The position numbers and the translations under genes are program-made. Below, in pieces: positions 5,941 to 64,000 of a DNA stretch of 64,000 bases (within the stretch, counting starts at the first letter, position 1; each line of letters opens with the position of its first letter). This DNA comes from Pedobacter westerhofensis. GTDB taxonomy: Bacteria; Bacteroidota; Bacteroidia; Sphingobacteriales; Sphingobacteriaceae. The notes under the pieces were generated by a model. It was not told the DNA's origin. It saw nothing but the letters and a program-made list of their open reading frames with translations, and made no database searches. Location: assembly GCF_900182595.1 (NCBI RefSeq), contig NZ_FXTN01000004.1:372001-436000 (forward strand). Direction: 5' to 3'.

Positions 5941-8304
5941 TCTGACAGAAAGGCCAAGGTTAACAGCTCTGCCTCTTCCTTTTGAGTAAAAGCCTGGCTG
6001 CATAAACCACTGGGCGCGGGCAGGAAAATAATCCTCATTGAATAGATTGTCAATACCCAGACTTAAACGTGTATTTTTGTTAACCCTGAATCCAGCTGCA
6101 AAACTAAACAGGTTGTAAGGCTCAACTACACCTTCATTTCCATTATAGATTCCGCTGGTTGCATTTTTCTCAAACCGGTCACGTTTCATAATCCCAGTGT
6201 AATTAAGTGTCAGATCAAGTACCCTCAGCGGAAGATAATTTATACTACCCGTAATTTTTGGTGCAGAGATGCGCCTTCCGTTTAAGTACAGGTCTTCAGG
6301 ATCGTTATACTTTCCATTTCCATTCACATCTCGTTTGCCTTCGGTATAACTGTAGCTTCCTGAAATATTCAGAGAGGGTGTAATGATAAAATTTGCCGCC
6401 AGTTCATAACCGTAGATATTTTCCGGGCTCCGGTTGGTATTATACAGCGTTGTTGCCGGATCGTATACAACCTCTATGCCTAATTTAGATGTGCTGCGAT
6501 AAGCTGATGCCGTAAGTTTTAATCCTTTGAAACTGCTTTCAAAACCTAATTCATAGTTGTTTACCCTAACAGCATCAGTATTTATTTTGTCGATGCTGCT
6601 GGCTCTCGCGTCGCGCAATGCAAGACCAATATCCATTACAGAGAAACCCTGGGAATAACTGACGAATGGACTGAACAATGGTAGTTTATTGTATTTGAAA
6701 CCAGCATTAAATAAGGCCGTATTGTATTTTAATGCGCCGCCCGTAACATTGATTGAGGGTGTTACTGTCGCCCCGTTTGCACCGGTAATCCGGAGAGTCT
6801 GGTAATCATCAACATCAATGTTCACATGCTCGTACCTGAATCCTGTTTTAAATATCAGGTTCCTGAAAAGATTTACATCGGCCTGTACAAATGGCGCCAG
6901 ATTGGTCATATCCATAGTAGGCACCCACACACGGCCGTCGACCAATGGTTGTGAGGTTTTATCCCGGAGAAAATCTAATCCATAGGCAAGGTTTGCTGTT
7001 ACAGGTAAATGGTCAATAATTGGTGTTTGTAAAAATATCCTTGCGCCTTTCTTATCATTGTGCGCAAGTGACTGTCCGTCGCCGCCGTCAAATCGACCAG
7101 CAGAGACGTAAAAAACGTCTTCCCTGTTTTCGTAATATGCGTCAGCTGTAAGGGAAGTTTTTAAAAACAGACTGTCAAGTTTGTACGAAAAATGTAGATT
7201 ATGGTTGTACTGATTGCCGGTTGGTATTCCCGCAGGAGCTCCTAACTTTCCTGTTGCCTTTTGGCCTGTGGCCAAATTTCCATTAATCAGTGTGTAGTTA
7301 CTGTGTTGTAAACTACTGTAAAAGTTGTAAACCAGCTGAAGACGTTGATTTTTAGTAGGCTGATAACCTATCTTGGCAAATGCGTTATAGCTATCTGTTT
7401 CCCCAAGGCTATAGTTAGGGCCTACAATATCACCTTTTGCGTCTCTATACTCGCCTGTTTGCTCTGCCACACCACTTAGAACGTAGTCGAACTTGTTAGT
7501 TTTTCCATAGAACATCTGGCTGATTCTGCCTCCAGCGGAGTTTTTAAGCTTCACCAGCGATCCATTATAGGAGATATCAGTTTTACCCGCAAATTTCTGG
7601 GCTGTATCTGGCACCAATGTAATATAGTTGACCAAGCCTCCGGCAGCCCCGTTACCATAAATAGCAGTTGCACCTTTTACCACCTCGACCTGCTGTAAGA
7701 CGGAGGGATCAATAGATCTGAGATCAACTTCTGCATTTCTGAGAGGGGAGGACTGACTAACACCGTCAATCATGACCAGCATGGGTCTACCGCGCAAATT
7801 CTGACCAACATTGCTGCCAGACTGTGCTGAAGGTGCGATTCCTGGAACCTGATTTGCGAGGATCGCTGTTAAATCCGGATTGATAGCGATTTCATTTTCC
7901 AGTTTTTTCCTGGAAATTACTGTTACAGATGAAGTAATATTACGAAGTTGCTCTGGCCTTCGGGTTGCAGAAACTACAACTTCATCCAGGTCATTTTGAA
8001 TCTTCTCCAACTTCCAGTTGATTGTGGTATCACGTTGTATGGCCGGAAGATTGACCAATAATGTCTGATAACCTGCAGAGGAGATTTTTAATGTGACAGG
8101 AACACCGGCAGAGAGATATATTCCATACAGACCTTTTGCGTCTGCATTATTTGACGTTCTACCGATCTTGATGGTTGCAAAAGGCAGAAACCCATTTTCA
8201 TCTTTTACTATACCCTGTACTTTGACACTTTGTGCAACGGTAGTAAGACTAACCAGGGAAAAAACCAGCAAAATAAATAGCGAGAGTTGTAGATTTTTCA
8301 TCAT
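5935..8304 (-). CDS. TonB-dependent receptor, siderophore/iron type
   Basis: This 789-residue outer-membrane receptor has a signal peptide (1-24, ending TVAQS). A carboxypeptidase-regulatory-like domain follows (about 28-110: VQGIVKDENGFLPFATIKIG), then a TonB-box-like segment with LDEVVVSATRRPEQL. The plug is at about 125-235 (ISRKKLENE, LRGRPMLVMIDGV, VEVVKGATAIYGNGAAGGLV). A long beta-barrel ends with VNLGLSVRY, where the terminal aromatic residue is typical of outer-membrane proteins. The plug and barrel resemble FecA/FhuA-type siderophore receptors. A 23-bp palindrome with a Fur-box-like core lies 37 bases upstream, consistent with iron control. Ligand identity is inference. Confidence 0.9.
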   Translation of the reverse strand: MMKNLQLSLFILLVFSLVSLTTVAQSVKVQGIVKDENGFLPFATIKIGRTSNNADAKGLYGIYLSAGVPVTLKISSAGYQTLLVNLPAIQRDTTINWKLEKIQNDLDEVVVSATRRPEQLRNITSSVTVISRKKLENEIAINPDLTAILANQVPGIAPSAQSGSNVGQNLRGRPMLVMIDGVSQSSPLRNAEVDLRSIDPSVLQQVEVVKGATAIYGNGAAGGLVNYITLVPDTAQKFAGKTDISYNGSLVKLKNSAGGRISQMFYGKTNKFDYVLSGVAEQTGEYRDAKGDIVGPNYSLGETDSYNAFAKIGYQPTKNQRLQLVYNFYSSLQHSNYTLINGNLATGQKATGKLGAPAGIPTGNQYNHNLHFSYKLDSLFLKTSLTADAYYENREDVFYVSAGRFDGGDGQSLAHNDKKGARIFLQTPIIDHLPVTANLAYGLDFLRDKTSQPLVDGRVWVPTMDMTNLAPFVQADVNLFRNLIFKTGFRYEHVNIDVDDYQTLRITGANGATVTPSINVTGGALKYNTALFNAGFKYNKLPLFSPFVSYSQGFSVMDIGLALRDARASSIDKINTDAVRVNNYELGFESSFKGLKLTASAYRSTSKLGIEVVYDPATTLYNTNRSPENIYGYELAANFIITPSLNISGSYSYTEGKRDVNGNGKYNDPEDLYLNGRRISAPKITGSINYLPLRVLDLTLNYTGIMKRDRFEKNATSGIYNGNEGVVEPYNLFSFAAGFRVNKNTRLSLGIDNLFNEDYFPARAQWFMQPGFYSKGRGRAVNLGLSVRY

Positions 8305-9349: not shown

Positions 9350-10348
9350 ATGAAAAACTTACAAACTATCCCACAGGGGAAATTGTTGATCTACGGAGCA
9401 ACCGGATACACTGGTACACTAATCGTCCATGAAGCAGCACGCAGAGGCATAGACTTCGAAATCGCCGGCAGAAGCGAAGATAAGTTAGCTGTATTGGCTG
9501 CTGAACTCAACGTTCCTTACCATGTATTTCATGTTGGTGACATTGAAGGATGGAAAGCATCCCTGGAAGGTAAAACTGCATTGCTAAATATAGCAGGACC
9601 TTTTAGCGAAACAGCAGAGCAGGCGATGGAAGCTGCCATCAAATCCAAGGTACACTACTTTGATATTACTGCAGAAGTAGACATTTACCGTCTTGCCGAA
9701 AGCAAAGATGCTGCAGCCAAAGCCGCCGGTATCATGCTGTTGTCAGGAGCCGGATTATTCGCTACATATGACCCTTTAATTGTACACACTGCGAAACGCG
9801 TAAAAAATCCTGTTGCACTGCGTGCAGCGTTCAAATATTCAGGAGGGTTTACGCCCGGTTCTGTAGCCAGCAGTGGCAATATCATCAACGCGGGATTTTT
9901 GGTGAGGAAAAACGGCGAGTTAAGAAAACTAACGGAAGCACCTTCTGCTGCTTTTGATCTGGGTGACGGCCCGGAAGATTTTTCTCTGATGCCTTTGGGT
10001 GCGGTAGTTATCAGTTATAAATCAACAGGTATTCCTGATATCGAGGAATATTTTGCAATGGCGGCTCCGGCTGAAGCGGGTACTGAACCATTCAAAGAAG
10101 GTCATCCGGTAGCAGGATCTGGCACACAGCGCAGTAAAATTCTAGTCGAAGTTACCGGAGATGACGGAACAGTAGTGCGTTCAATGGCGGATACACAGGA
10201 TGGTTATATGCCAACTGTTACATCAGCAGTTGAGGTGGTAAATCATGCATTGAATGGTTCGTTTAAAATAGGATTTCAGTCGCCCGCTTCTGCATATGGT
10301 GCGGAATTGCTGACTTCACTACACGATGTGAACATAACTGATTTTTAA
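9350..10348 (+). CDS. Saccharopine dehydrogenase-like NAD(P)-binding protein
   Basis: The 332-residue protein starts with a Rossmann domain: LLIYGATGYTG at residues 12-22, then EIAGRSEDKL binding the cofactor ribose. It continues as in saccharopine dehydrogenase / trans-acting enoyl reductase family proteins (NIAGPFSETAEQAMEAAI, then HYFDITAEVD). These are cytoplasmic oxidoreductases of varied and often unknown substrate; true lysine metabolism is not implied. Neighbouring TetR and the shared promoter motif suggest induction by a small molecule. A bidirectional terminator follows. Confidence 0.8.
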   Translation: MKNLQTIPQGKLLIYGATGYTGTLIVHEAARRGIDFEIAGRSEDKLAVLAAELNVPYHVFHVGDIEGWKASLEGKTALLNIAGPFSETAEQAMEAAIKSKVHYFDITAEVDIYRLAESKDAAAKAAGIMLLSGAGLFATYDPLIVHTAKRVKNPVALRAAFKYSGGFTPGSVASSGNIINAGFLVRKNGELRKLTEAPSAAFDLGDGPEDFSLMPLGAVVISYKSTGIPDIEEYFAMAAPAEAGTEPFKEGHPVAGSGTQRSKILVEVTGDDGTVVRSMADTQDGYMPTVTSAVEVVNHALNGSFKIGFQSPASAYGAELLTSLHDVNITDF

Positions 10349-54585: not shown

Positions 54586-57291
54586 TTATTTTAACCTGTC
54601 CAATTCAGACTGGTTGCTCAGGTCTTTTTTCGGTGCCGTAGACTTGCTGCCAAATTTGTAATTTAAGCTCAGGTTGAACCGTCGGTTTTCATTTTTATTA
54701 TAAAAAGTACTGTATAAGTTTCCGGTTTCATTTACCCCTTTTGTGATATAGCTGTAAAAAATATCAGTGATACCCATTTTCAGGGAAGCCTTATTTTTTA
54801 ATATCGTGTATTTGAAACCTGCATCAACCCTGTATCTCGGGTCTATCCGTCGCGTGAGCACAACGCGTCTGGATTTGAGCAAGCCCAGTACTTCGAAAGA
54901 CAACCGGGGATTTACCTCAAGGGAATTGAGGAGATTGAGGCTGCAGGCGGCTTGTTTCAGATTGACATAGGTGTCAAGTATAGGTGTTTTGTATTGCTCG
55001 TAAAACAGATCACTATTGGCGGTCATATTCCACCATGATGAAATTTCCTTATTGTAACTGATTGATAAGTCAATGGTATAATAATTTTTAAAATTATCTA
55101 TAGTCTGCCTGGTTGCTCCGCTGCTGTCGGCCAGTGAAGTGAAGTAGTTAAAGTAGTTCTTAGTTTTACTATAGGATAGGCCCAGCGTCAGGTCTTTTTC
55201 AAAAAGGTAGCTGAATTCGACAGATTGGGTGGTTTCCGGCTGGAGCAGGGGATTGCCCTGAGTATAAAAGTAGGGAGAGGAATAGTCTATGAAGGGATTT
55301 AAGTCTTCGTATCCGGGCCTTCCGATCCTGCGGCTGTAGGAAAAACTGATCTGGTCTTTTCCTATATCCCTTAACAGAAACAGGCTTGGGAAAAACTGGA
55401 TATAGCTTCTGTTGAACCTTTCCCCGGTGGTTATAGAAGTCCCCTGATAATCAGTTTGCTCTGCTCTGACACCAACCTGGAAGCTCGTATGCTCAGCAAA
55501 TTTTGTGATGTAGTTAAGGTATGCTGCATTGATATATTCTTTATAATCAAAAGTATTTGTCCGGCCCGGATCGCTTACAGCATATCCCGGAATAACTTCA
55601 TTCTGGAACAGGATGCTGCTATTGGAATGTGTATATGCTGTTTTAGCCCCGGCCTCGAACTTTGCGTTTTTTGAAAGCGGATAAGTATAATCGACTTTTG
55701 CCGTGTAGACCCTGATGTCAATATCCGCAGAGTTTAAAACCTTTTCCTGCGGCCGGTCAGACAGTCCCTGTTTGTTAAAATAACTATTAATATACGTATT
55801 TGGATCGGAAGACCGATAGGCAGTATAATCAGCGTTGAATAAGATCAGATGATCATCAGGACCGAAGAGGTGCTTCACACTGAGATTTAGCCCATATGTA
55901 TGATACGAACCTTTTCCATTGTTCAGGGACGATAAACTGGAGTCGGGGACACCGCTGTTAAAATCCCTGAAGACTGTATTCTCTTTGAAATCCGAACGAC
56001 TGGTATTATCATTTAAGGTGCCTAGTATCCCTATTGTATTAAAATCATTCAGCGTATAGTCGGCCCCCAGTCGCGCGTTATTGGAAACCGATCTGTTATG
56101 TGAGATTTGATTTTGGTTATATTTAAGTAATTCTGGCGCGGTTATCCTTTTATCACTCAGGTATTCTGATTTCTGCAGACTATGCTGAAAACTGTAGTTA
56201 CTGAACATGTTGAGTTTACCTGCTTTGTAATTCAGCGTAGCACTTTCGCTGAACCGCGGTCGGGTCCCAATAATAAATCCGCTGGTAACCGTCCCGTTAA
56301 ATCCCGGATTTGTTCCCTTTTTAGTTTTAATATTGATAATTCCTCCTTTGCCTTCCGCATCATACTTAGAAGAAGGATTGCTGATCAGCTCGATTTTATC
56401 GATTGAATTTGCTGGCATACTTTGCAAAAGGGAGCTGATTTCGGCTGCCGATAATTTAACCCTTTTATCATCGATCATCACTATGACGCCCTGTTTTCCT
56501 TTCATGCTGATCTGGCCATTGTCAATGGAAACGCCGGGAGCAATCTCCAGTAGTTCGTTGACCGAGCCGCTGCTTGCCAGGATGCTGTTTTCGACGTTCA
56601 TAATTGTGCGGTCTATCTGGCGCTCTATAAATTGCTTCTTTGCAACCACCCGAACCTCATTCAGTTGTTTGCTGGAGGGCGCAAGCTGCAGGGGAGGCAA
56701 ATGGATACCTGCTGAAGTTAAGCTGAAATTAGTGCTCGAGGTTGTTTGATATCCCATTTGCGAAACCTTTAACCTGTAATTTCCCAGGGCAATGTTTTTA
56801 AATGTGTATTTTCCGGTGCTGTCGCACAGCGTATTTTTCACTACTGAAGTATCCTGCGTTTTCAGTAGCTGAACGGAGCTGTATGACAGGGGTTGTTGCC
56901 TCTGGTCGTAAATATAACCTGTTACTGTGCCCGTAGCAATACTATCTGTAGTGGCAGCAATCTTTGAAGTGGAGAATATGCCCGTTTTTTTTACTCTGGG
57001 ATAGATGACATAATTACTGTTTTCTACATGGTAGAAAGAGAGGTCTGAGTCTTTAAAGAAATCTGCGAGTACTTTTTCTATTTTCTGATCCGTTGACTGG
57101 GGTACCACATAGCTGGTAGTTTTGCCGGTAAGCAGTCCATCCTGATACATGAAATTGATATGGTATTGATGTGCCAGTCGGTCGATCACTTCTTTTACAG
57201 GATGTTCGTTAACAGAAATCTGTGAAGCATAGGACCCTTCAGAAAAATAGATAGAACAGATCATTGTTATAAAAAATGTGATGTATTTCAT
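54586..57291 (-). CDS. STN-domain outer-membrane beta-barrel receptor
   Basis: The 901-residue protein has a signal peptide (1-23). An STN domain follows (about 25-95: ISVNEHPVKEVIDRLAHQYH) that contacts FecR-type anti-sigma factors. Then come a carboxypeptidase-regulatory-like domain (about 125-210: GTVTGYIYDQRQQPLSYSSV), a plug (about 215-330: MKGKQGVIVMIDDKRVKLSA) and an OMP_b-brl_3-type barrel. It lies 16 bases after FecR. The C-terminus is Lys/Ser-rich and lacks a terminal aromatic residue. Transport and signalling are both likely. Confidence 0.9.
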   Translation of the reverse strand: MKYITFFITMICSIYFSEGSYASQISVNEHPVKEVIDRLAHQYHINFMYQDGLLTGKTTSYVVPQSTDQKIEKVLADFFKDSDLSFYHVENSNYVIYPRVKKTGIFSTSKIAATTDSIATGTVTGYIYDQRQQPLSYSSVQLLKTQDTSVVKNTLCDSTGKYTFKNIALGNYRLKVSQMGYQTTSSTNFSLTSAGIHLPPLQLAPSSKQLNEVRVVAKKQFIERQIDRTIMNVENSILASSGSVNELLEIAPGVSIDNGQISMKGKQGVIVMIDDKRVKLSAAEISSLLQSMPANSIDKIELISNPSSKYDAEGKGGIINIKTKKGTNPGFNGTVTSGFIIGTRPRFSESATLNYKAGKLNMFSNYSFQHSLQKSEYLSDKRITAPELLKYNQNQISHNRSVSNNARLGADYTLNDFNTIGILGTLNDNTSRSDFKENTVFRDFNSGVPDSSLSSLNNGKGSYHTYGLNLSVKHLFGPDDHLILFNADYTAYRSSDPNTYINSYFNKQGLSDRPQEKVLNSADIDIRVYTAKVDYTYPLSKNAKFEAGAKTAYTHSNSSILFQNEVIPGYAVSDPGRTNTFDYKEYINAAYLNYITKFAEHTSFQVGVRAEQTDYQGTSITTGERFNRSYIQFFPSLFLLRDIGKDQISFSYSRRIGRPGYEDLNPFIDYSSPYFYTQGNPLLQPETTQSVEFSYLFEKDLTLGLSYSKTKNYFNYFTSLADSSGATRQTIDNFKNYYTIDLSISYNKEISSWWNMTANSDLFYEQYKTPILDTYVNLKQAACSLNLLNSLEVNPRLSFEVLGLLKSRRVVLTRRIDPRYRVDAGFKYTILKNKASLKMGITDIFYSYITKGVNETGNLYSTFYNKNENRRFNLSLNYKFGSKSTAPKKDLSNQSELDRLK

Positions 57292-57307: not shown

Positions 57308-58318
57308 TTATTTTACAATTAACTGTTTGGCAGAATTTTTGGAAAATGTGATATTCAATGCAAGAGAAAGCCCCTTTAATAATCCGGCTTCACTGCTGGT
57401 GACAAAAGTCCCGGTAAGCTTCTTACTCAGGATTTCCTGATTCTGAACTATCACCTTATACCCATACATATCTTCAAGCTGTGTAAATACCTCGCTCACA
57501 GAAGTCTGGTTAAATTCCAGACGGTTGTTTCTCCAGGCAATCTTCTTTACAGCTATTGTCTTCTTTTTTATGATGGTGTCCTGGTGGGAGAGATATTCAA
57601 ATACTTCACCAGCTTTCATCAGCACAGCCTTTTTTGCTTTAAGCCCGAGGCTTACCTTACCCCTGATCAGTGCAACATTCACCAGTCCACGTCTGTGGTT
57701 CACGTTAAACGTAGTTCCAAGGACTTCGATGGCCAGTTGGCCGGCATGCACCACAAAATGATCTGCTGGCAGCACAGCGCCAGACTGATGCAGATGTTTT
57801 ACAACAAACAGTGCTTCTCCGGTTATCCATACTTCCCTCTTTTCGCTGCTGCTCCAATTTTTCAGGTAGTGCAGGGTACTGTTGGCATTGAGCTCTACCT
57901 GTGAATGGTCAGGAAGCATGATCGTCTTTTTTTCTCCGAAGGCTGTACGAAACTCTACCGTGCTTTTTAAGCGGTAAAAAAAGAATAATGATCCAACCAG
58001 AATAACCGCTGCAGCGGCACTGACAATTGTCCGCAATTTAATGACATGCACCTTTTTGTGTTTTGTTATTGCTGCATTTATGCGGCTCCAAAGCTGGTCC
58101 TCATCCTGCTGATCAAAGATTCTCTGTTCCAAGGTAATGCCGGATACGACTTTGGCCGCAATTTCCATATTCTGTATCTGTTCAGGATGGCTGAGACGAA
58201 CCTGTTCCCAATAGGCCGAGAGCTCTGGATTGGGTAACAATACCCAGGTGATGAAAGAAAGATCAGTTATAAAATCTTCGGGTTTGTAATGAGGTAAGTC
58301 TGGATTAGGCTTGATCAT
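57308..58318 (-). CDS. FecR family anti-sigma factor
   Basis: The 336-residue protein has a cytoplasmic N-terminal part (about 1-90) that binds the sigma factor, a single membrane helix (about 93-113), a FecR periplasmic domain (TAFGEKKTIMLPDHSQVELN, WITGEALFVVKH, VLGTTFNVNHRRG, VNVALIRGKVSLG) and a C-terminal DUF4974-like end (LEFNQTSVSEVFTQLEDMYG). It transmits the receptor signal to the ECF sigma factor encoded 103 bases upstream. Confidence 0.92.
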   Translation of the reverse strand: MIKPNPDLPHYKPEDFITDLSFITWVLLPNPELSAYWEQVRLSHPEQIQNMEIAAKVVSGITLEQRIFDQQDEDQLWSRINAAITKHKKVHVIKLRTIVSAAAAVILVGSLFFFYRLKSTVEFRTAFGEKKTIMLPDHSQVELNANSTLHYLKNWSSSEKREVWITGEALFVVKHLHQSGAVLPADHFVVHAGQLAIEVLGTTFNVNHRRGLVNVALIRGKVSLGLKAKKAVLMKAGEVFEYLSHQDTIIKKKTIAVKKIAWRNNRLEFNQTSVSEVFTQLEDMYGYKVIVQNQEILSKKLTGTFVTSSEAGLLKGLSLALNITFSKNSAKQLIVK

Positions 58319-58421: not shown

Positions 58422-59006
58422 TTAACAATAGTACAGGTATATAAATCTAAAGTCTTTCAGCGTAAGATTTCTTCGCATGACGGCAATAGCCCTCCCCAAT
58501 AATTTATAAGTTCCTTTTTTTGTAATATCCATAATATCGGAAATCTCTTCGAAGGAGAGGCCTTCGTAATACCGCAGGTAGATAATCTCGTATTGTTTTA
58601 CTGATAATTTTTTAAATGAACTTTCCAGCTTTTTTTTGATATCAAGCTGATATTCTTCAGTGATCATTTGGGCTTCTTTGTTGAAAGTGATTTCAAAGAG
58701 GGGAAGATCATTCACGGATACGAATTGATGATCAGCGTTTAATAGTTTGAATAGATTAATCCTGAATGATTTAAACAAGTAATTTTTAGTATGATCTGTA
58801 CTGCTTAAATGTGTTCTTCTTTCCCAAAGGGATACAAACAGATCCTGAATGCATTCCTTAATGAGTTCTCTGTTGCTGCTGAATCTTGTACCATAATTGA
58901 AGAGAAGCTTTGAATATGATCTCACAATACTTTCGAAAGCGATGCGGTCACCCTTCCTAAAAGCATCCCAGGTGATCGTATCGGATTTAGTGGCTGCGCT
59001 TTTCAA
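58422..59006 (-). CDS. ECF (FecI-type) RNA polymerase sigma factor, TTG start
   Basis: The 194-residue sigma-70 region-2/region-4 protein has AFESIVRSYSKLLFNYGTRF (region 2), CIQDLFVSLWERR, and region 4 LSVKQYEIIYLRYYEGLSFE with ISDIMDITKKGTYKLLGRAI. The frame has no ATG before region 2; TTG at 59006 is the best start (MKSAATKSD). It probably directs transcription of the FecR/receptor/LytTR genes once released. It is divergent from the peptide precursor gene. It has its own -7 element at 59091-59098. Confidence 0.9.
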   Translation of the reverse strand: MKSAATKSDTITWDAFRKGDRIAFESIVRSYSKLLFNYGTRFSSNRELIKECIQDLFVSLWERRTHLSSTDHTKNYLFKSFRINLFKLLNADHQFVSVNDLPLFEITFNKEAQMITEEYQLDIKKKLESSFKKLSVKQYEIIYLRYYEGLSFEEISDIMDITKKGTYKLLGRAIAVMRRNLTLKDFRFIYLYYC

Positions 59007-59160: not shown

Positions 59161-59191
59161 TTTCACCAGATTGAGGCGCAGTTTAATTTTG
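59161..59191 (+). promoter_or_regulatory. Promoter of the peptide/maturase operon
   Basis: TTTC at 59161-59164 and TAATTTTG at 59184-59191 are separated by 19 bases, matching the Bacteroidota -33/-7 layout (TTTG-N19-TAnnTTTG) with one mismatch. The predicted start is near 59197, leaving a 43-base AT-rich leader before the precursor. Confidence 0.55.
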
Positions 59192-59239
59192 TTCATAGTA
59201 TATTCAGTTACAATCTAAAATAAACTTAATTTATTTGTT

Positions 59240-59386
59240 ATGGAAAATTCCAAAGAAAACCAATTTGATCCAAAAGAGTTTTTGGATGCAAAAGTTATTT
59301 CTCCTCTGGAGCAGGAAAAACTTTTAGGAGGTACAGCTGAAGCTGTGGAGAAAGAAACTGTGAAAGAACACGTAAAAGAAACCTAA
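59240..59386 (+). CDS. Double-glycine leader peptide (RiPP precursor)
   Basis: This 48-residue peptide has a leader ending SPLEQEKLLGG (residues 1-31: start MENSKENQFDPKEFL). The GG at 30-31 after Leu28-Leu29 is the classic site cut by C39 peptidases. The predicted core is 17 residues (residues 32-48: TAEAVEKETVKEHVKET) with no Cys, Ser or aromatic residue, but three Thr, five Glu and three Lys. It precedes two oxygenase-like proteins and a C39 exporter, so it is the likely precursor of a modified secreted peptide. It is too short for standard gene finders and may be missed in other genomes. Confidence 0.75.
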   Translation: MENSKENQFDPKEFLDAKVISPLEQEKLLGGTAEAVEKETVKEHVKET

Positions 59387-59406
59387 GAGGTAGTCTTTTT
59401 GAGAAG

Positions 59407-59435
59407 CAAGCCAGATGTGAATATCATCTGGCTTG
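59407..59435 (+). terminator. Hairpin between precursor and maturase genes
   Basis: Perfect 11-bp arms CAAGCCAGATG and CATCTGGCTTG around a 7-base loop, 20 bases after the precursor stop. The following T-run is weak (TTGTTCGTT), so it may be a partial terminator or an mRNA-stabilising end that raises precursor over maturase expression. Confidence 0.6.
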
Positions 59436-59465
59436 TTCGTTCAAGTTGAATTTAATACCGGGCAA

Positions 59466-60800
59466 ATGGAACTAACAAACAACATTACTACGAGCGACAC
59501 TGCTCAAACTGCATGGACTAAAGAATGGTGGACAAACTTTTTAGACGCGTCCGATTTTTTTAAGGATTCCATTCTTATTCCGGATGTTATGGATGAAGAA
59601 ACTGTGGCCAGTTTTAACGACATGACAGGATCGATGTTGAGGGAGATCTTTATAAGGCAGAATACATCCTATGACTTTAGACTGTACCTGAACGGGAAAT
59701 CGCAGTCGAGGAAATATATGGTTGACAATTTATTTAATTACCCGCCATTGACTACTGAAAGCCTGGCAGAATGGGCATCTCGTACGTTTGCGGATGAGAA
59801 ATTCGGGCTGATCATTAATTCGGGGGAGAAGTTTTCAAACGAAATGGCAGAGAAGATTGCAGTGTACCTGAATCCGCTACTGGAAGAGGCCGGGCTGCCC
59901 CTCAAAGGCATCAATATCACTGTCTTTGTGGGCAATTATGGGTTTACTCCCCTGGGCATACATACGGATCATCCCGGAGAAAATGTGATGCACCTACATC
60001 TTGGGCCTGGCGAAAAAACGATGTACAACTGGGAAATGGAAGCCTACAAAGAAATCGCGGGTGATGTATCAAATAATAAAAACATTGCACCTCTTTTGCC
60101 TTTTGCGAAAGCCTTCCAGCTAAGAACCGGGGATGTGTATTTTATGCCATGGAACAAGTTCCACATTGGCAATACAGAAGATTTTTCAGTAGGGCTGAGC
60201 GTCTGGTACAACAATATGCCACTGAACAGGCTCTTTGAGAATCTGATCAAATCGTTTAAATATCAGTACCTTAAAAAAGATGACACGAATGACAAATCCA
60301 ATATTGTTGGGCCTTACAAGGCTCCCGATGCGGAGGAAGGTTTTGAACAGATACTCTCTGCCCTGGAAATGGACGATGTGAGATTGAAAACAAGTCTTAA
60401 AGATCTCACCAGAGAGGTTTTTGAATCGTACATCCTCTCGTTGTACAGCAACCAGGGCTGGAAATCAAGGCCTATTTCTGTTGAAGATGAACTTGCTTTA
60501 AAAGGCCTTAAACTCAATGAATCTACATTTCTTCATTTGAAAGATAAAATTATCCACGCTCCTGAATCCTATAAGATAACCTATAAAATCCTGGAGAGTG
60601 GTCAGCTGAGAATTTATGCAAGGGGAACAAAAATTGAAATTAAATATCATCCTGAGCTTGTCGCTATTATACAAAAGCTAAATGAGGGTGGAAGTTATCA
60701 GACAGAAGAACTGCTTAAGGAATTAAATAAAGAATGGCCTGAGCAAGCCGGACTTTATATACTTAACCTCTTATTCCTGAACAGAGCAATAGTTTATTAA
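59466..60800 (+). CDS. JmjC/cupin-type Fe(II)/2-oxoglutarate oxygenase-like protein (peptide maturase 1)
   Basis: ATG 59466 is used; the frame from TTG 59433 overlaps the hairpin. The 444-residue protein has a jelly-roll domain with GIHTDHPGENVMHLHLGPGE and TGDVYFMPWNKFHIGNTEDF. These give the facial metal triad H166, D168 and H233, as in JmjC/cupin-4 (ROXA-like) hydroxylases. The N-terminal 110 residues are unusual. The C-terminus (about 395-444: IKYHPELVAIIQKLNEG, LLKELNKEWPEQAGLYILNL) looks like a winged helix or RiPP-recognition-type element. It probably hydroxylates the peptide encoded upstream. It is a tandem paralogue of the next protein. Confidence 0.75.
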   Translation: MELTNNITTSDTAQTAWTKEWWTNFLDASDFFKDSILIPDVMDEETVASFNDMTGSMLREIFIRQNTSYDFRLYLNGKSQSRKYMVDNLFNYPPLTTESLAEWASRTFADEKFGLIINSGEKFSNEMAEKIAVYLNPLLEEAGLPLKGINITVFVGNYGFTPLGIHTDHPGENVMHLHLGPGEKTMYNWEMEAYKEIAGDVSNNKNIAPLLPFAKAFQLRTGDVYFMPWNKFHIGNTEDFSVGLSVWYNNMPLNRLFENLIKSFKYQYLKKDDTNDKSNIVGPYKAPDAEEGFEQILSALEMDDVRLKTSLKDLTREVFESYILSLYSNQGWKSRPISVEDELALKGLKLNESTFLHLKDKIIHAPESYKITYKILESGQLRIYARGTKIEIKYHPELVAIIQKLNEGGSYQTEELLKELNKEWPEQAGLYILNLLFLNRAIVY

Positions 60801-60821
60801 TGAACAATAAAATACTGGAAT

Positions 60822-62129
60822 ATGTCAAATGCAGGATTAACAATTGCCAATACCACAGAAAAGTTTCCATTGAATCGTACAGGATGGGAAAGTATTCTTC
60901 ATCAGACTGATAAATTTTCAATACCGGGAGTACAAACAAATGTATTGGAACAGGAGGACAGAGTTAACTTCAAAAAATGGATTTTTGATGTGGTACGTCA
61001 CATTTGCCTGAATAAAACAAATGCATATGGTTTTCGCGTATATGTTAACGGCGAAATTGTCAACAAGGATTACCTGATTGAGAAGGTATATCCGCACATA
61101 CCTGCCGTAGACAGTGATGGATCGGCATGGATTGAGGATGTTTTTCAGGATCAAAAGTTTGGCATTATCCTTAATTACAGCGAAAAGTTCAGTATGTCGA
61201 TGGCAGACCGCCTTTCCGTCCTGCTCCATCCCCTCCTGGAACATCTTGGTGTTCCTTCCAATGGTATGCATACTACGGTATTTATCGGGAACTATGGCTT
61301 TACACCATTAGGTCTTCATCAGGATCATTTTGGTGCCAATGTGATACATTTTCATCTGGGGCCCGGAGATAAAACCATGTACACCTGGGAAGCCGGACTC
61401 TTTGAATCTGTGGATGGAAAAAACAAAGTCCTTTCAGAATTGCTCCCCTTAGCCAACGCTTATCATTTTGAGCAGGATGACCTGTTTTTTATGCCCTGGG
61501 ACCAATATCACATCGGACAGACAGACGATTTGTCTGTAGGGCTTACGGTATGGTTTGATAACCACAGTAACTATGCCCTTGCCGAAAGACTGCTGAAGTC
61601 TGTTACTGTGGAACTGACTGATGAAAACCTGCTGGAAATCACTAATCTGCAGCGGGGGATTGCTGATATTGATTATTCTCCTGTAGAAGAGATATTTAAA
61701 AACCATTCGACGATTGCTGATTTACCATTCAAGGAACTGCTGCGGGAAGTTTTCACCGATTTTAAGATGGCGCTGTTCAGCAATTGCGGCTGGACTTCCA
61801 TTCCGGTTACTGTTGAGCAGATTTCAGCGGATTTTAAAGTCGATACAAATTTCAGCATGATGGACGGTGTGCGTGTGCAAGTTCCCAATCCTTACCAGCT
61901 TTATTACAGGAGAAGTACCGCAGAAGATATCACCATCTATGCAAGAGGAGCAAAAATCACAATCAAATATCATCCGCTGCTGGAAGATATTATGAACAGG
62001 TTAAATACCAACGAAATCTTTGCTTCAGGATCTTTGCTGAAGGAGTTGAATGAGGTATGGCCACCGCAGGCGGGATTGTATTTTCTGGCGTTGTTATATA
62101 ATAAACGGGCACTTTATATTACTGATTAG
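60822..62129 (+). CDS. JmjC/cupin-type Fe(II)/2-oxoglutarate oxygenase-like protein (peptide maturase 2)
   Basis: The 435-residue paralogue of the preceding protein starts MSNAGLTIAN. It has GLHQDHFGANVIHFHLGPGD and DDLFFMPWDQYHIGQTDDLS, giving triad H166, D168 and H230. Conserved blocks shared with maturase 1 include VFIGNYGFTPLG, DKFSIPGV-type N-terminal region, KFGIILNYSEKFS and the C-terminal IKYHPLLEDIMNRLN, LLKELNEVWPPQAGLYFLAL. The two are about one third to one half identical by eye. Two paralogues suggest two modification sites or a heterodimer. It lies 21 bases after maturase 1 and 26 bases before the exporter. Confidence 0.75.
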   Translation: MSNAGLTIANTTEKFPLNRTGWESILHQTDKFSIPGVQTNVLEQEDRVNFKKWIFDVVRHICLNKTNAYGFRVYVNGEIVNKDYLIEKVYPHIPAVDSDGSAWIEDVFQDQKFGIILNYSEKFSMSMADRLSVLLHPLLEHLGVPSNGMHTTVFIGNYGFTPLGLHQDHFGANVIHFHLGPGDKTMYTWEAGLFESVDGKNKVLSELLPLANAYHFEQDDLFFMPWDQYHIGQTDDLSVGLTVWFDNHSNYALAERLLKSVTVELTDENLLEITNLQRGIADIDYSPVEEIFKNHSTIADLPFKELLREVFTDFKMALFSNCGWTSIPVTVEQISADFKVDTNFSMMDGVRVQVPNPYQLYYRRSTAEDITIYARGAKITIKYHPLLEDIMNRLNTNEIFASGSLLKELNEVWPPQAGLYFLALLYNKRALYITD

Positions 62130-62155
62130 CTTCAGTTATCATCTGATTTTATGGA

Positions 62156-64000
62156 ATGAGAAATTTTCCTCACTATTCACAATTTGATTCCATTGACTGC
62201 GGGCCCGGCTGCCTGCAAATCATTTCCAAATTTTATGGCAGAGAATATTCCCTAAATCTGTTGCGTAGTTTAAGTAATGTTGGCCGGGAAGGTGTGTCTG
62301 TATTGGGCATCTGCCGTGCCGCAGAAAAACTGGGCTTCAACTCAACACCAGTAAAGATCAGCTTTGCAGATTTTGCATCGCGTGTGCAACTTCCCTGTAT
62401 TGTGCACTGGCAGCAAAACCATTTTCTTGTGGTTTACAAAATCACATCAAAATATGTTTATCTCTCAGATCCGGGTTCTTCAAGGCAGAAAGTTACTGTT
62501 GCTGCCTTTCTGAAAAACTGGATCAGTGATGTAGAAGATAATGAGAAAATCGGGATCGTCATCGCTCTGGAAATGCTGCCCGCATTCAAGACCATCAATC
62601 TGGAAGATTCAAATATCCCGCAGGCCAATAAAACAGAGGGGCTAAAATATCTTTTCGAACATTTGTTCAGCCATAAAAAAGTGATCATCCAAATAGCCTT
62701 CGGGCTATTCTTCAGCACCTTATTTACGCTGATCCTTCCTTTTCTTACCCAGGGTATTATTGATTCCGGGATAAATGAAAAAGATATCAATTTTATATAC
62801 CTGCTGGTTTTTGGACAAATTGCTATTTATACGGGACAATTGGTAATAGAATTTATTCAAAACTGGCTGCTGATGTATGTTGGTTCAAGGATCAATGTGA
62901 CAATGGTCTCTGAGTTTTTATCCAAGATTATGGCTATGCCCATCAAATATTTTGACACAAAACTTTCCGGAGACCTGCTGCAGCGGATAGATGACCATAA
63001 AAGAATAGAGAAGTTCCTGACGTCCAAAACTCTGGGCCTGATCTTCCAGGTGCTGTTGTTCGCTGCCTTCGTGACTGTACTTGCCTTCTATAATACAAGC
63101 GTTTTTGTTTGCTTTATGATTGGGACTTCAGGGTATATTGGATGGGTCTTATTGTTTCATCGTAAAAGGAGGATAGTTGACTTCCAGAAGTTTATTGAGC
63201 TGTCGAAGAACCAATCCAAGCAGATTGAAATTATAAACGGGATGCAGGACATTAAACTGCACAACTCAGAGCGGCAGAAAAGATGGGAATGGCAGGAAAT
63301 ACAAGCCAGATTGTTTGATATTAACCTACGCTATCTTTCACTTGAACAATACCAGCGACTGGGTGCAAAATTTATCAACAGCATTAAAAATATCATTATC
63401 ACGCTAATTGCCACAAAAGCTGTAATTGCGGGCGACATGTCTTTGGGCCAGCTCATCGCGATCCAGTTTATCGTGGGAGAACTTAACTCTCCACTGAGCT
63501 CCGCGATAGACTTTATTCAATCCTACCAGGAAGCCAAAATTAGTCTGGACAGAATAGGAGAGATGCAACAACCGCAGTCAGACAGCAGTAGTTTGACAGA
63601 CCATCTGCTGCGTCCCTTGTCTTCGGGATCCCTGCAGTTAATAAAAGTTAGTTTTACCTATGCCGGAACGCACTATTCAAAAGTATTAAAAGACGTAGAC
63701 CTGCATATTCCTGAAGGAAAAACGACAGCCATTGTGGGACTGAGCGGCAGCGGCAAAACGACTTTGTTAAAGCTGCTCATGAAATTCTATGAACCCACAG
63801 AGGGACAAATCGTAGTGGGCGATATTAACCTTAAATCTGTTAATGAGCAGATTTGGCGGGAGAAATGTGGTTCTGTACTACAGGATGGCTTTGTTTTTTC
63901 TGATACGATCGCCAGAAATATCGCTTTAGGAGTAGAGAACATAGATCATCGACAGTTGTTTGAGGCAGCGAAGATTGCCAATATACGGGAGTTCATTGAT
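62156..64000 (+). CDS. C39-peptidase ABC exporter (partial, runs off the window)
   Basis: From ATG 62156 the frame runs 615 codons to the window end without a stop. Residues 1-130 are a C39 double-glycine peptidase with catalytic Cys15 (SQFDSIDCGPGCL), His89 (WQQNHFLVV) and Asp105 (YLSDPGS). About six membrane helices of the exporter domain follow (IIQIAFGLFFSTLFTLILPF onwards). The ABC domain begins near 510 with Walker A GLSGSGKTT and Q-loop VLQDGFVFSDT; signature and Walker B lie beyond the edge. It should cleave the leader after GG and export the core. The first in-frame ATG at 62151 has a stop after one codon and is not used. Confidence 0.92.
   Translation, partial: MRNFPHYSQFDSIDCGPGCLQIISKFYGREYSLNLLRSLSNVGREGVSVLGICRAAEKLGFNSTPVKISFADFASRVQLPCIVHWQQNHFLVVYKITSKYVYLSDPGSSRQKVTVAAFLKNWISDVEDNEKIGIVIALEMLPAFKTINLEDSNIPQANKTEGLKYLFEHLFSHKKVIIQIAFGLFFSTLFTLILPFLTQGIIDSGINEKDINFIYLLVFGQIAIYTGQLVIEFIQNWLLMYVGSRINVTMVSEFLSKIMAMPIKYFDTKLSGDLLQRIDDHKRIEKFLTSKTLGLIFQVLLFAAFVTVLAFYNTSVFVCFMIGTSGYIGWVLLFHRKRRIVDFQKFIELSKNQSKQIEIINGMQDIKLHNSERQKRWEWQEIQARLFDINLRYLSLEQYQRLGAKFINSIKNIIITLIATKAVIAGDMSLGQLIAIQFIVGELNSPLSSAIDFIQSYQEAKISLDRIGEMQQPQSDSSSLTDHLLRPLSSGSLQLIKVSFTYAGTHYSKVLKDVDLHIPEGKTTAIVGLSGSGKTTLLKLLMKFYEPTEGQIVVGDINLKSVNEQIWREKCGSVLQDGFVFSDTIARNIALGVENIDHRQLFEAAKIANIREFID

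Follow-up and report, generated by a model that had tools for sequence, protein, structure and literature searches.

Near the end of a 64,000-nucleotide stretch of the Pedobacter westerhofensis genome (G000; 6.35 Mb, 40 contigs), positions 372001-436000 of contig C4 and called the window below, lies a group of genes that may encode a pathway for a ribosomally synthesized and post-translationally modified peptide (RiPP). A preliminary description of the sequence listed a precursor peptide with a double-glycine (GG) leader, two oxygenase-like proteins and a leader-cleaving ABC exporter, and all of these are present contiguously on the plus strand (Table 1). The oxygenase-like proteins A and B are indeed paralogues (36-38% identical), and Pfam identifies C39 peptidase (E 2.9e-31), ABC membrane and ABC ATPase domains in the part of the exporter inside the window, so that a peptidase is fused to the transporter and its partner peptide carries an LLGG site. 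Directly after the exporter, past the window end, a 240-residue HlyD-family protein is encoded. The suggestion that more enzymes may lie beyond the window is thus borne out for an additional gene but not for a further maturase: after the HlyD-like gene no other operon gene or maturase was seen by eye among open reading frames (ORFs) of at least 90 amino acids, which are mostly on the opposite strand. No lanthionine (Lan) synthetase or ATP-grasp ligase was found among the Pfam-scanned genes of the operon, the ORFs further downstream having been inspected only by eye at the same length limit. The promoter that had been placed ahead of the precursor was not supported by a sigma-70 consensus (not the Bacteroidota-type pattern), with two matches against a mean of 1.9 in shuffled sequences.

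The short ORF is confirmed as a gene. It consists of a 31-residue leader, which ends FDPKEFLDAKVISPLEQEKLLGG and terminates in EKLLGG, and a 17-residue core, TAEAVEKETVKEHVKET. Comparison with the precursor of genome G018 revealed 12 synonymous and 2 non-synonymous differences, the proportions per site (pS and pN) being 0.42 and 0.02, without any amino acid change in the leader; 11 synonymous and 2 non-synonymous differences separate it from the precursor of G013. These values indicate that the precursor is under purifying selection, and the low pN relative to pS, together with recurrence in tens of loci, places the arrangement beyond chance.

Table 1. Features of the locus and other GG-type small ORFs of the genome
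Feature	Position	Strand	Remarks
Precursor peptide ORF	59240..59386	+	48 aa; ORF list, leader alignment, purifying selection, leader profile
Hairpin between precursor and oxygenase A	59407..59435	+	perfect 11-bp stem, 7-nt loop
Oxygenase A	59466..60800	+	444 aa; predicted ribosomal oxygenase-like JmjC fold; C-terminal domain like a winged helix or RiPP recognition element, about residues 366-444
Oxygenase B	60822..62129	+	435 aa; paralogue of A with identical catalytic pattern
C39-peptidase ABC exporter	62156..64000, plus 363 bases beyond the window	+	735 aa in total
ECF-type sigma factor	58422..59006	-	Pfam; divergent from precursor; putative member of the system
FecR-type anti-sigma factor/transducer	57308..58318	-	Pfam; putative member of the system
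OMP_b-brl_3/TonB-receptor-like outer-membrane barrel	54586..57291	-	relatives near the block elsewhere; putative member here
GG-type small ORFs, same genome	L156 7732-7893; L157 7613-7852; L158 4933-5148	-	

Recurrence of the leader, the oxygenase and the exporter

The genome_contigs collection (84,980 species) was scanned with a seven-row profile of the oxygenase, which gave 136 candidate stretches, 76 of them confirmed and corresponding to 73 loci. Adding five loci from the searched genomes gave 78, and removal of three copies left 75. The 46 loci whose best oxygenase scored at least 290 bits are termed close loci and the other 29 are weaker relatives; the window's own locus lies outside the 46, and its near copy in G018 is among them. 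The preliminary description had made its reading depend on finding the maturases together with a GG peptide or an exporter at other places, and they were found so: at least one leader-type GG peptide is encoded in 40 of the 46 close loci, and a C39 exporter lies within the examined stretch in 41. The exporter was not found in the examined stretches of L024 (where a partial ABC gene lies at the end of the stretch), L041, L046, L056 and L062. Hosts of the gene set include some bacteria of soil and water.

The leaders share the motif FLxxKxLSPLExxxxxGG. The 76 loci scanned contain 10,876 small ORFs, of which 59 match a regular expression for the leader; every one of these 59 lies on the strand of the oxygenase and no more than 900 bp from it. 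Shuffling of residues yielded a mean of 0.77 matches, and a stricter expression gave 53 matches compared with 0.005. A conserved leader is combined with a variable core in an encoded precursor, as in RiPP systems. Seven of eight precursors tried matched no NCBIfam model, and the eighth matched two unrelated families at E-values of 0.04-0.06.

A profile was built from 30 leaders, that of the window included, and recovered the window leader in its own genome at E 1.2e-12. Of 99 genomes, a set that contains G000, four encode the oxygenase: G000, G013, G018 and G022, the last of which is listed under the window's genus. Leader matches at E below 1e-5 were obtained in exactly these four, where they are full-length with E-values of 1.7e-10 to 6.7e-14, and the next-best match in the set is partial (E 0.0057). 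When the limit was relaxed to an E-value of 1, matches appeared in 58 of the 99 genomes; these were taken as noise, being mostly partial and in long frames. Across 395 genomes from the phylum, G000 among them, a full-length oxygenase and a full-length leader were both found only in G000 and G276, with one weak partial oxygenase match in G395 and one weak partial leader match in G244.

Relatives of the oxygenase also adjoin ATP-grasp peptide maturases in L064 (8007-15150), L067 and L071. The ATP-grasp protein of L064 scores above the grasp-with-spasm cut-off, and those of L067 and L071 are related and score below the cut-offs. L064 encodes two Cys-containing GG peptides (9384-9557 and 10009-10182). 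These arrangements suggest hybrid graspetide pathways.

Predicted fold of the oxygenases and predicted docking of the leader

The ATG start of oxygenase A is conserved in two relatives, and a TTG form of 455 residues is likewise open. Sequence models do not name the enzymes: in Pfam, A reaches E 0.12 and 12.4 bits against JmjC_2 (PF08007; gathering cut-off 22 bits) and B is unmatched, and NCBIfam has no name for either. Relatives in a plasmid collection are annotated, among the matches listed, merely as cupin domain-containing or hypothetical proteins. An AlphaFold2 model of oxygenase A was built on an alignment of 73 rows, consisting of the window pair and 71 of 89 locus proteins, and has a mean predicted local distance difference test score (pLDDT) of 92.8 and a predicted template modelling score (pTM) of 0.89. 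A Foldseek search with the model returned E. coli YcfD as the top match (E 1.4e-14), followed by Rhodothermus YcfD, NO66 and MINA53. VIA-align superimposed model and YcfD over 340 residues between positions 15 and 444 (Z 19.5, root-mean-square deviation 6.6), whereas JMJD5 and KDM6 align with the N-terminal catalytic part only; the large whole-chain deviation from YcfD indicates that the domains are arranged somewhat differently in the model. Identity to the ribosomal oxygenases (ROX) in the structural alignments is 11-16%.

The catalytic residues H166, D168 (Glu in 2 rows), K184 and H233 of oxygenase A are kept in all 73 rows, and B has the same HxD/E...K...H pattern. K184 is presumably the 2-oxoglutarate-binding residue, as in other JmjC enzymes. 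The features that define the ROX fold, namely a JmjC core, a middle part and a C-terminal winged helix in one chain, are all seen in the model, and the Fe-binding HxD/E...H pattern is intact throughout the alignment. The oxygenases of the window are thus predicted to have the fold of the ribosomal oxygenases YcfD, NO66 and MINA53, and their genome context argues for the GG peptide over a ribosomal protein as the probable substrate. The earlier label "JmjC-type" is accordingly upheld by the predicted fold and the metal-binding pattern but not by Pfam. The window has a pair of maturases, but at least two oxygenases are encoded in only 14 of the 46 close loci, and in the tree the multi-oxygenase loci stem from more than one duplication.

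The last 80 residues of oxygenase A form three strands (372-375, 380-385 and 388-393) followed by three helices (396-406, 413-417 and 426-438) in the AlphaFold2 model. The same order, strand-strand-strand-helix-helix-helix, is given for RiPP recognition elements (RREs) in PMC12710340, and the predicted C-terminal domain resembles these elements. Against a profile made from 30 PqqD proteins of the phylum, the C-terminal part reached a probability of 55% (E 1.2e-4) in local mode and 24% in global mode, and the catalytic and middle parts as well as a control with shuffled columns all remained below 1%. Additionally, L024 carries its last precursor and its first oxygenase in one frame, separated by a single stop, and the two were read through as an artificial fusion and modelled on an alignment of 45 rows. 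In this model the leader segment 11-20 (PRAFLNARII) has a mean pLDDT of 96 and forms a helix (11-15) and a strand (18-20), and residues 29-96 fall below 50. Since a strand requires a partner and the other strands exist solely in the enzyme, the leader is predicted to dock on the enzyme.

More distant relatives of the oxygenase occur in tandem in L073, L075, L079, L081, L082, L086 and L092, whose hosts are Photorhabdus, Photobacterium, a Neisseriaceae bacterium and an alphaproteobacterium. Their neighbours include an ABC exporter, a Cupin_8/JmjC protein and an arginase-family protein (Pfam was run for the L073 genes only), and the L073-type loci are possibly a RiPP type in which conversion of Arg to Orn is combined with hydroxylation. 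On a Pantoea ananatis plasmid (L160, 3790-9151), arginase-family, two cupin-domain, GNAT and MFS genes lie in a row, one of the cupin proteins being a distant relative of oxygenase A. The window's own genome encodes tandem proteins of 293 and 294 residues with sub-threshold JmjC_2 matches (L154 4408-6253, a locus on contig C8).

Cores and accessory features of the operons

Almost all cores (55 of 58) are less complex than the end of the leader. They comprise poly-Q runs of 6-17 residues, KVKVKVKVKIK, KEKEKEKEK, VVVRQVRQVVQ, TVKTVVDVVTTVT, KKKEKKK and H/D-rich types. Cys and Tyr each make up 0.3% of the core residues, two or more Cys are present in one core of the 58, and Trp is present in none. 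The poly-Q runs are encoded by intermixed CAA and CAG codons, so slippage as their sole origin is not favoured. Tandem precursor arrays were observed in L043 (five precursors, 7126-7990) and L047 (six, 6990-8007), each with one oxygenase; one L047 core contains KCKCKCKCK.

A tree of 64 oxygenases was calculated, and core classes (a Q run of at least 5; at least two His; other) were assigned to 56 rows, with L047 placed in the His class by joining its six peptides. The core class changes four times on the tree, compared with a minimum of 11 and a mean of 20.4 in 500 by-locus shuffles of the labels, and core type therefore follows oxygenase clade. The enzymes of six poly-Q loci from Flavobacteriaceae and Weeksellaceae form one clade (support 98/91). 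A seventh Q-run peptide comes from Chromobacterium (L051), and its enzyme falls in the H-core clade. That the Chromobacterium and Paucibacter enzymes nest within this clade, with Chitinophaga and G013 rows, suggests transfer between phyla on a tree rooted only at its midpoint.

The operons of six poly-Q loci (L042, L052, L057, L059, L060 and L065) also encode a small protein of 116-143 residues, for which a role in immunity, as a chaperone or as a partner is possible. Two of these proteins were scanned and had no Pfam match. They are weakly similar, with E-values from a very small set of sequences, to small operon proteins of L026, L027 and L061, some of which start like signal peptides.

In 24 of 37 operons a perfect stem of at least 9 pairs lies just behind the precursor gene. 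Shuffled sequences gave a mean of 0.33 and a maximum of 3 in 200 rounds, and stretches of the same length upstream of the first precursor gave 0 of 36. The hairpin region of the window folds at a z-score of -3.8. The element is likely an attenuator or an mRNA-stabilising structure, and its position fits a device that yields more precursor than enzyme.

Of 40 Bacteroidota loci, 24 encode an OMP_b-brl_3-type barrel no further than 600 bp from the block, and 17 have it directly upstream of the first GG gene at a distance of 76-194 bp. The copy of the window's arrangement in G018 is outside the 24, its barrel being further off, and in the window itself the barrel is on the other side of the block, beside the FecR and ECF sigma genes. 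Such a combination of barrel, FecR and ECF sigma factor is typical of surface signalling, and the sigma factor is a possible regulator of the system. Elsewhere (L031-L033, L035, L043, L047 and L050) a ThiF/E1-like gene, a LuxR-type regulator and an unnamed gene of about 220 codons were seen upstream of the precursors, one example of each having been examined with Pfam. Other GG-type small ORFs near C39 exporters lacking this oxygenase are present in the window's genome at L156, L157 and L158.

Proposed pathway, alternatives and related systems

Taken together, we consider it likely that the locus encodes a RiPP pathway in which ROX-like oxygenases repeatedly hydroxylate the core before cleavage by the C39 domain and export. 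The precursor would be made in excess over the enzymes, with the hairpin probably limiting read-through. The FLxxKxLS segment of the leader would bind the oxygenase, as docking in the model of a relative suggests, most likely at the C-terminal winged-helix domain. With Fe(II), 2-oxoglutarate and O2 the enzymes would hydroxylate several side chains, acting repeatedly along the repetitive core. From what is known of the exporter family, the C39 domain would cut after GG and the 17-residue product would leave the cell with the help of the HlyD-like protein. The TonB-receptor-like barrel would probably sense or take up the product, which is the weakest step. The loci would then form a RiPP family not previously described, possibly a class, with ROX-like maturases.

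Several points weigh against this pathway. No product has been observed so far, and a residue common to every core was sought among the 58 and not found. The loci were fetched by their oxygenase, and both the regular expression and the 290-bit cut-off were set after inspection. The expression finds no leader in six of the 46 close loci: the stretches of L044 and L053 begin at a contig end or close to one, the GG peptide of L064 is of another kind and belongs to a cluster that includes a grasp-with-spasm ATP-grasp enzyme, and in L056, L062 and L063 no GG leader peptide could be found. The leader is also absent from the 29 weaker relatives, which include loci of Photorhabdus, Photobacterium, Endozoicomonas and Vibrio. 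Most of the precursors recovered by the leader profile had served to train it (those of G000, G013, G022 and most likely G276), so their recovery is partly by construction, which leaves the absence elsewhere unaffected. A profile search of the PDB by sequence returned no match for the window oxygenase, so the fold rests on prediction. The PqqD match of the C-terminal domain is moderate, and the fusion model represents a Chitinophaga relative, lacks a negative control and does not reveal the docking site.

Other explanations differ in what the oxygenases act on and how. They may modify the precursor not, or not only, by hydroxylation but by desaturation, cross-linking, backbone cleavage or carbonyl formation, which we regard as unlikely. 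Alpha-ketoglutarate enzymes of RiPP pathways are reported to form Cys-Tyr cross-links (as cited in PMC12636437) and to cleave the backbone (PMC12636437), and where two or more paralogues are present they could perform different steps, but most of the nearest structures bear the PDB title of a ribosomal oxygenase or an arginyl/histidine hydroxylase (some NO66 entries that of a histone demethylase), and the cores hold almost no Cys or Tyr. A Cys-Tyr cross-link in particular was set aside because these residues are so scarce. Less probable again is an unmodified GG peptide, secreted as a bacteriocin or pheromone, with oxygenases that are merely co-regulated and act on another target, for instance the exporter, the barrel or a ribosomal protein. 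Unmodified peptides also leave cells through C39 exporters, and the fold predicted for the enzymes is shared with ribosomal-protein oxygenases, yet core type tracks oxygenase clade, enzyme and leader are jointly present or absent across genomes, the leader is predicted to dock in the fused model, and three distant enzyme relatives adjoin graspetide-type ATP-grasp enzymes. An origin of the leader-like ORFs and the gene order by chance or annotation artefact is so improbable that it was rejected: short GG ORFs are frequent in six frames, but selection on the precursor (pN far below pS), leader matches compared with shuffles (59 against 0.77), the E-values of the leader profile in the four genomes and hairpins compared with shuffles all speak against it.

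A bolder form of the hydroxylation pathway can be proposed tentatively and is somewhat unlikely to hold. The loci would be a separate RiPP class, marked by ROX-like oxygenases, in which ribosomal-protein hydroxylases (or an ancestor of these), with the winged helix binding the leader, hydroxylate each repeat of repetitive cores (poly-Q, KV, KE, VQR and H/D), and the resulting polyhydroxylated, perhaps self-assembling or metal-binding secreted peptides would be recognised by a dedicated TonB-type barrel.

A GG leader and a peptidase-containing exporter are used by lanthipeptides, class II bacteriocins and graspetides. The window shares both with these systems; in contrast, its cores are nearly Cys-free and no lanthionine, radical-SAM, YcaO or ATP-grasp gene lies between the precursor and the HlyD-like gene. 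The ribosomal oxygenases (YcfD/RoxA, NO66/RIOX1 and MINA53/RIOX2) are alike in predicted fold over nearly the whole length, with a JmjC-type core, a C-terminal winged-helix-like part and HxD...H, whereas the window enzymes share only 11-16% identity with them in the structural alignments and are encoded with GG peptides and exporters.

BipG and PbsQ are JmjC- or cupin-type tailoring hydroxylases that act on the precursors of biphenomycin-type RiPPs at Orn (PMC12707348, PMC12257519). They share the enzyme type and provide one step beside an MNIO, an arginase and a B12-dependent radical-SAM enzyme, whereas in the window the oxygenases are the only visible type of maturase and are combined with C39 export and repetitive cores. 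PflC and PosC, alpha-ketoglutarate HEXXH enzymes that hydroxylate consecutive Gln residues of a RiPP precursor (PMC12636437), are the closest chemical precedent seen for the poly-Q cores; they differ in being related to zincin proteases and in acting on a nitrile-hydratase-type leader without a typical double-Gly site. JmjC domains (PF08007) fused to RRE-like domains were described in 2025 in fish and algae, with bacterial homologues in RiPP-like contexts (PMC12710340), and the available part of that report describes neither a precursor, leader or core nor a gene cluster like those of the window. No match to the system was seen in the available parts of PMC13060819, PMC10734526 and PMC11002830, and a literature search covering few subscription papers did not find this system described.

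If the proposed pathway is correct, it would add a new type of maturase to RiPP biosynthesis and tie recognition of RiPP leaders to the winged-helix domain of ribosomal oxygenases. The set of loci supplies precursors for RRE-like/JmjC enzymes of the kind reported in PMC12710340. The leader motif provides a genome-mining handle for peptides that lack a fitting NCBIfam model, as judged from the eight tried. The match between enzyme clade and core type (poly-Q, H/D and K/V/E) opens substrate specificity to study by swaps of leader and core, and enzymes that hydroxylate many adjacent side chains of simple repeats would serve as tools.

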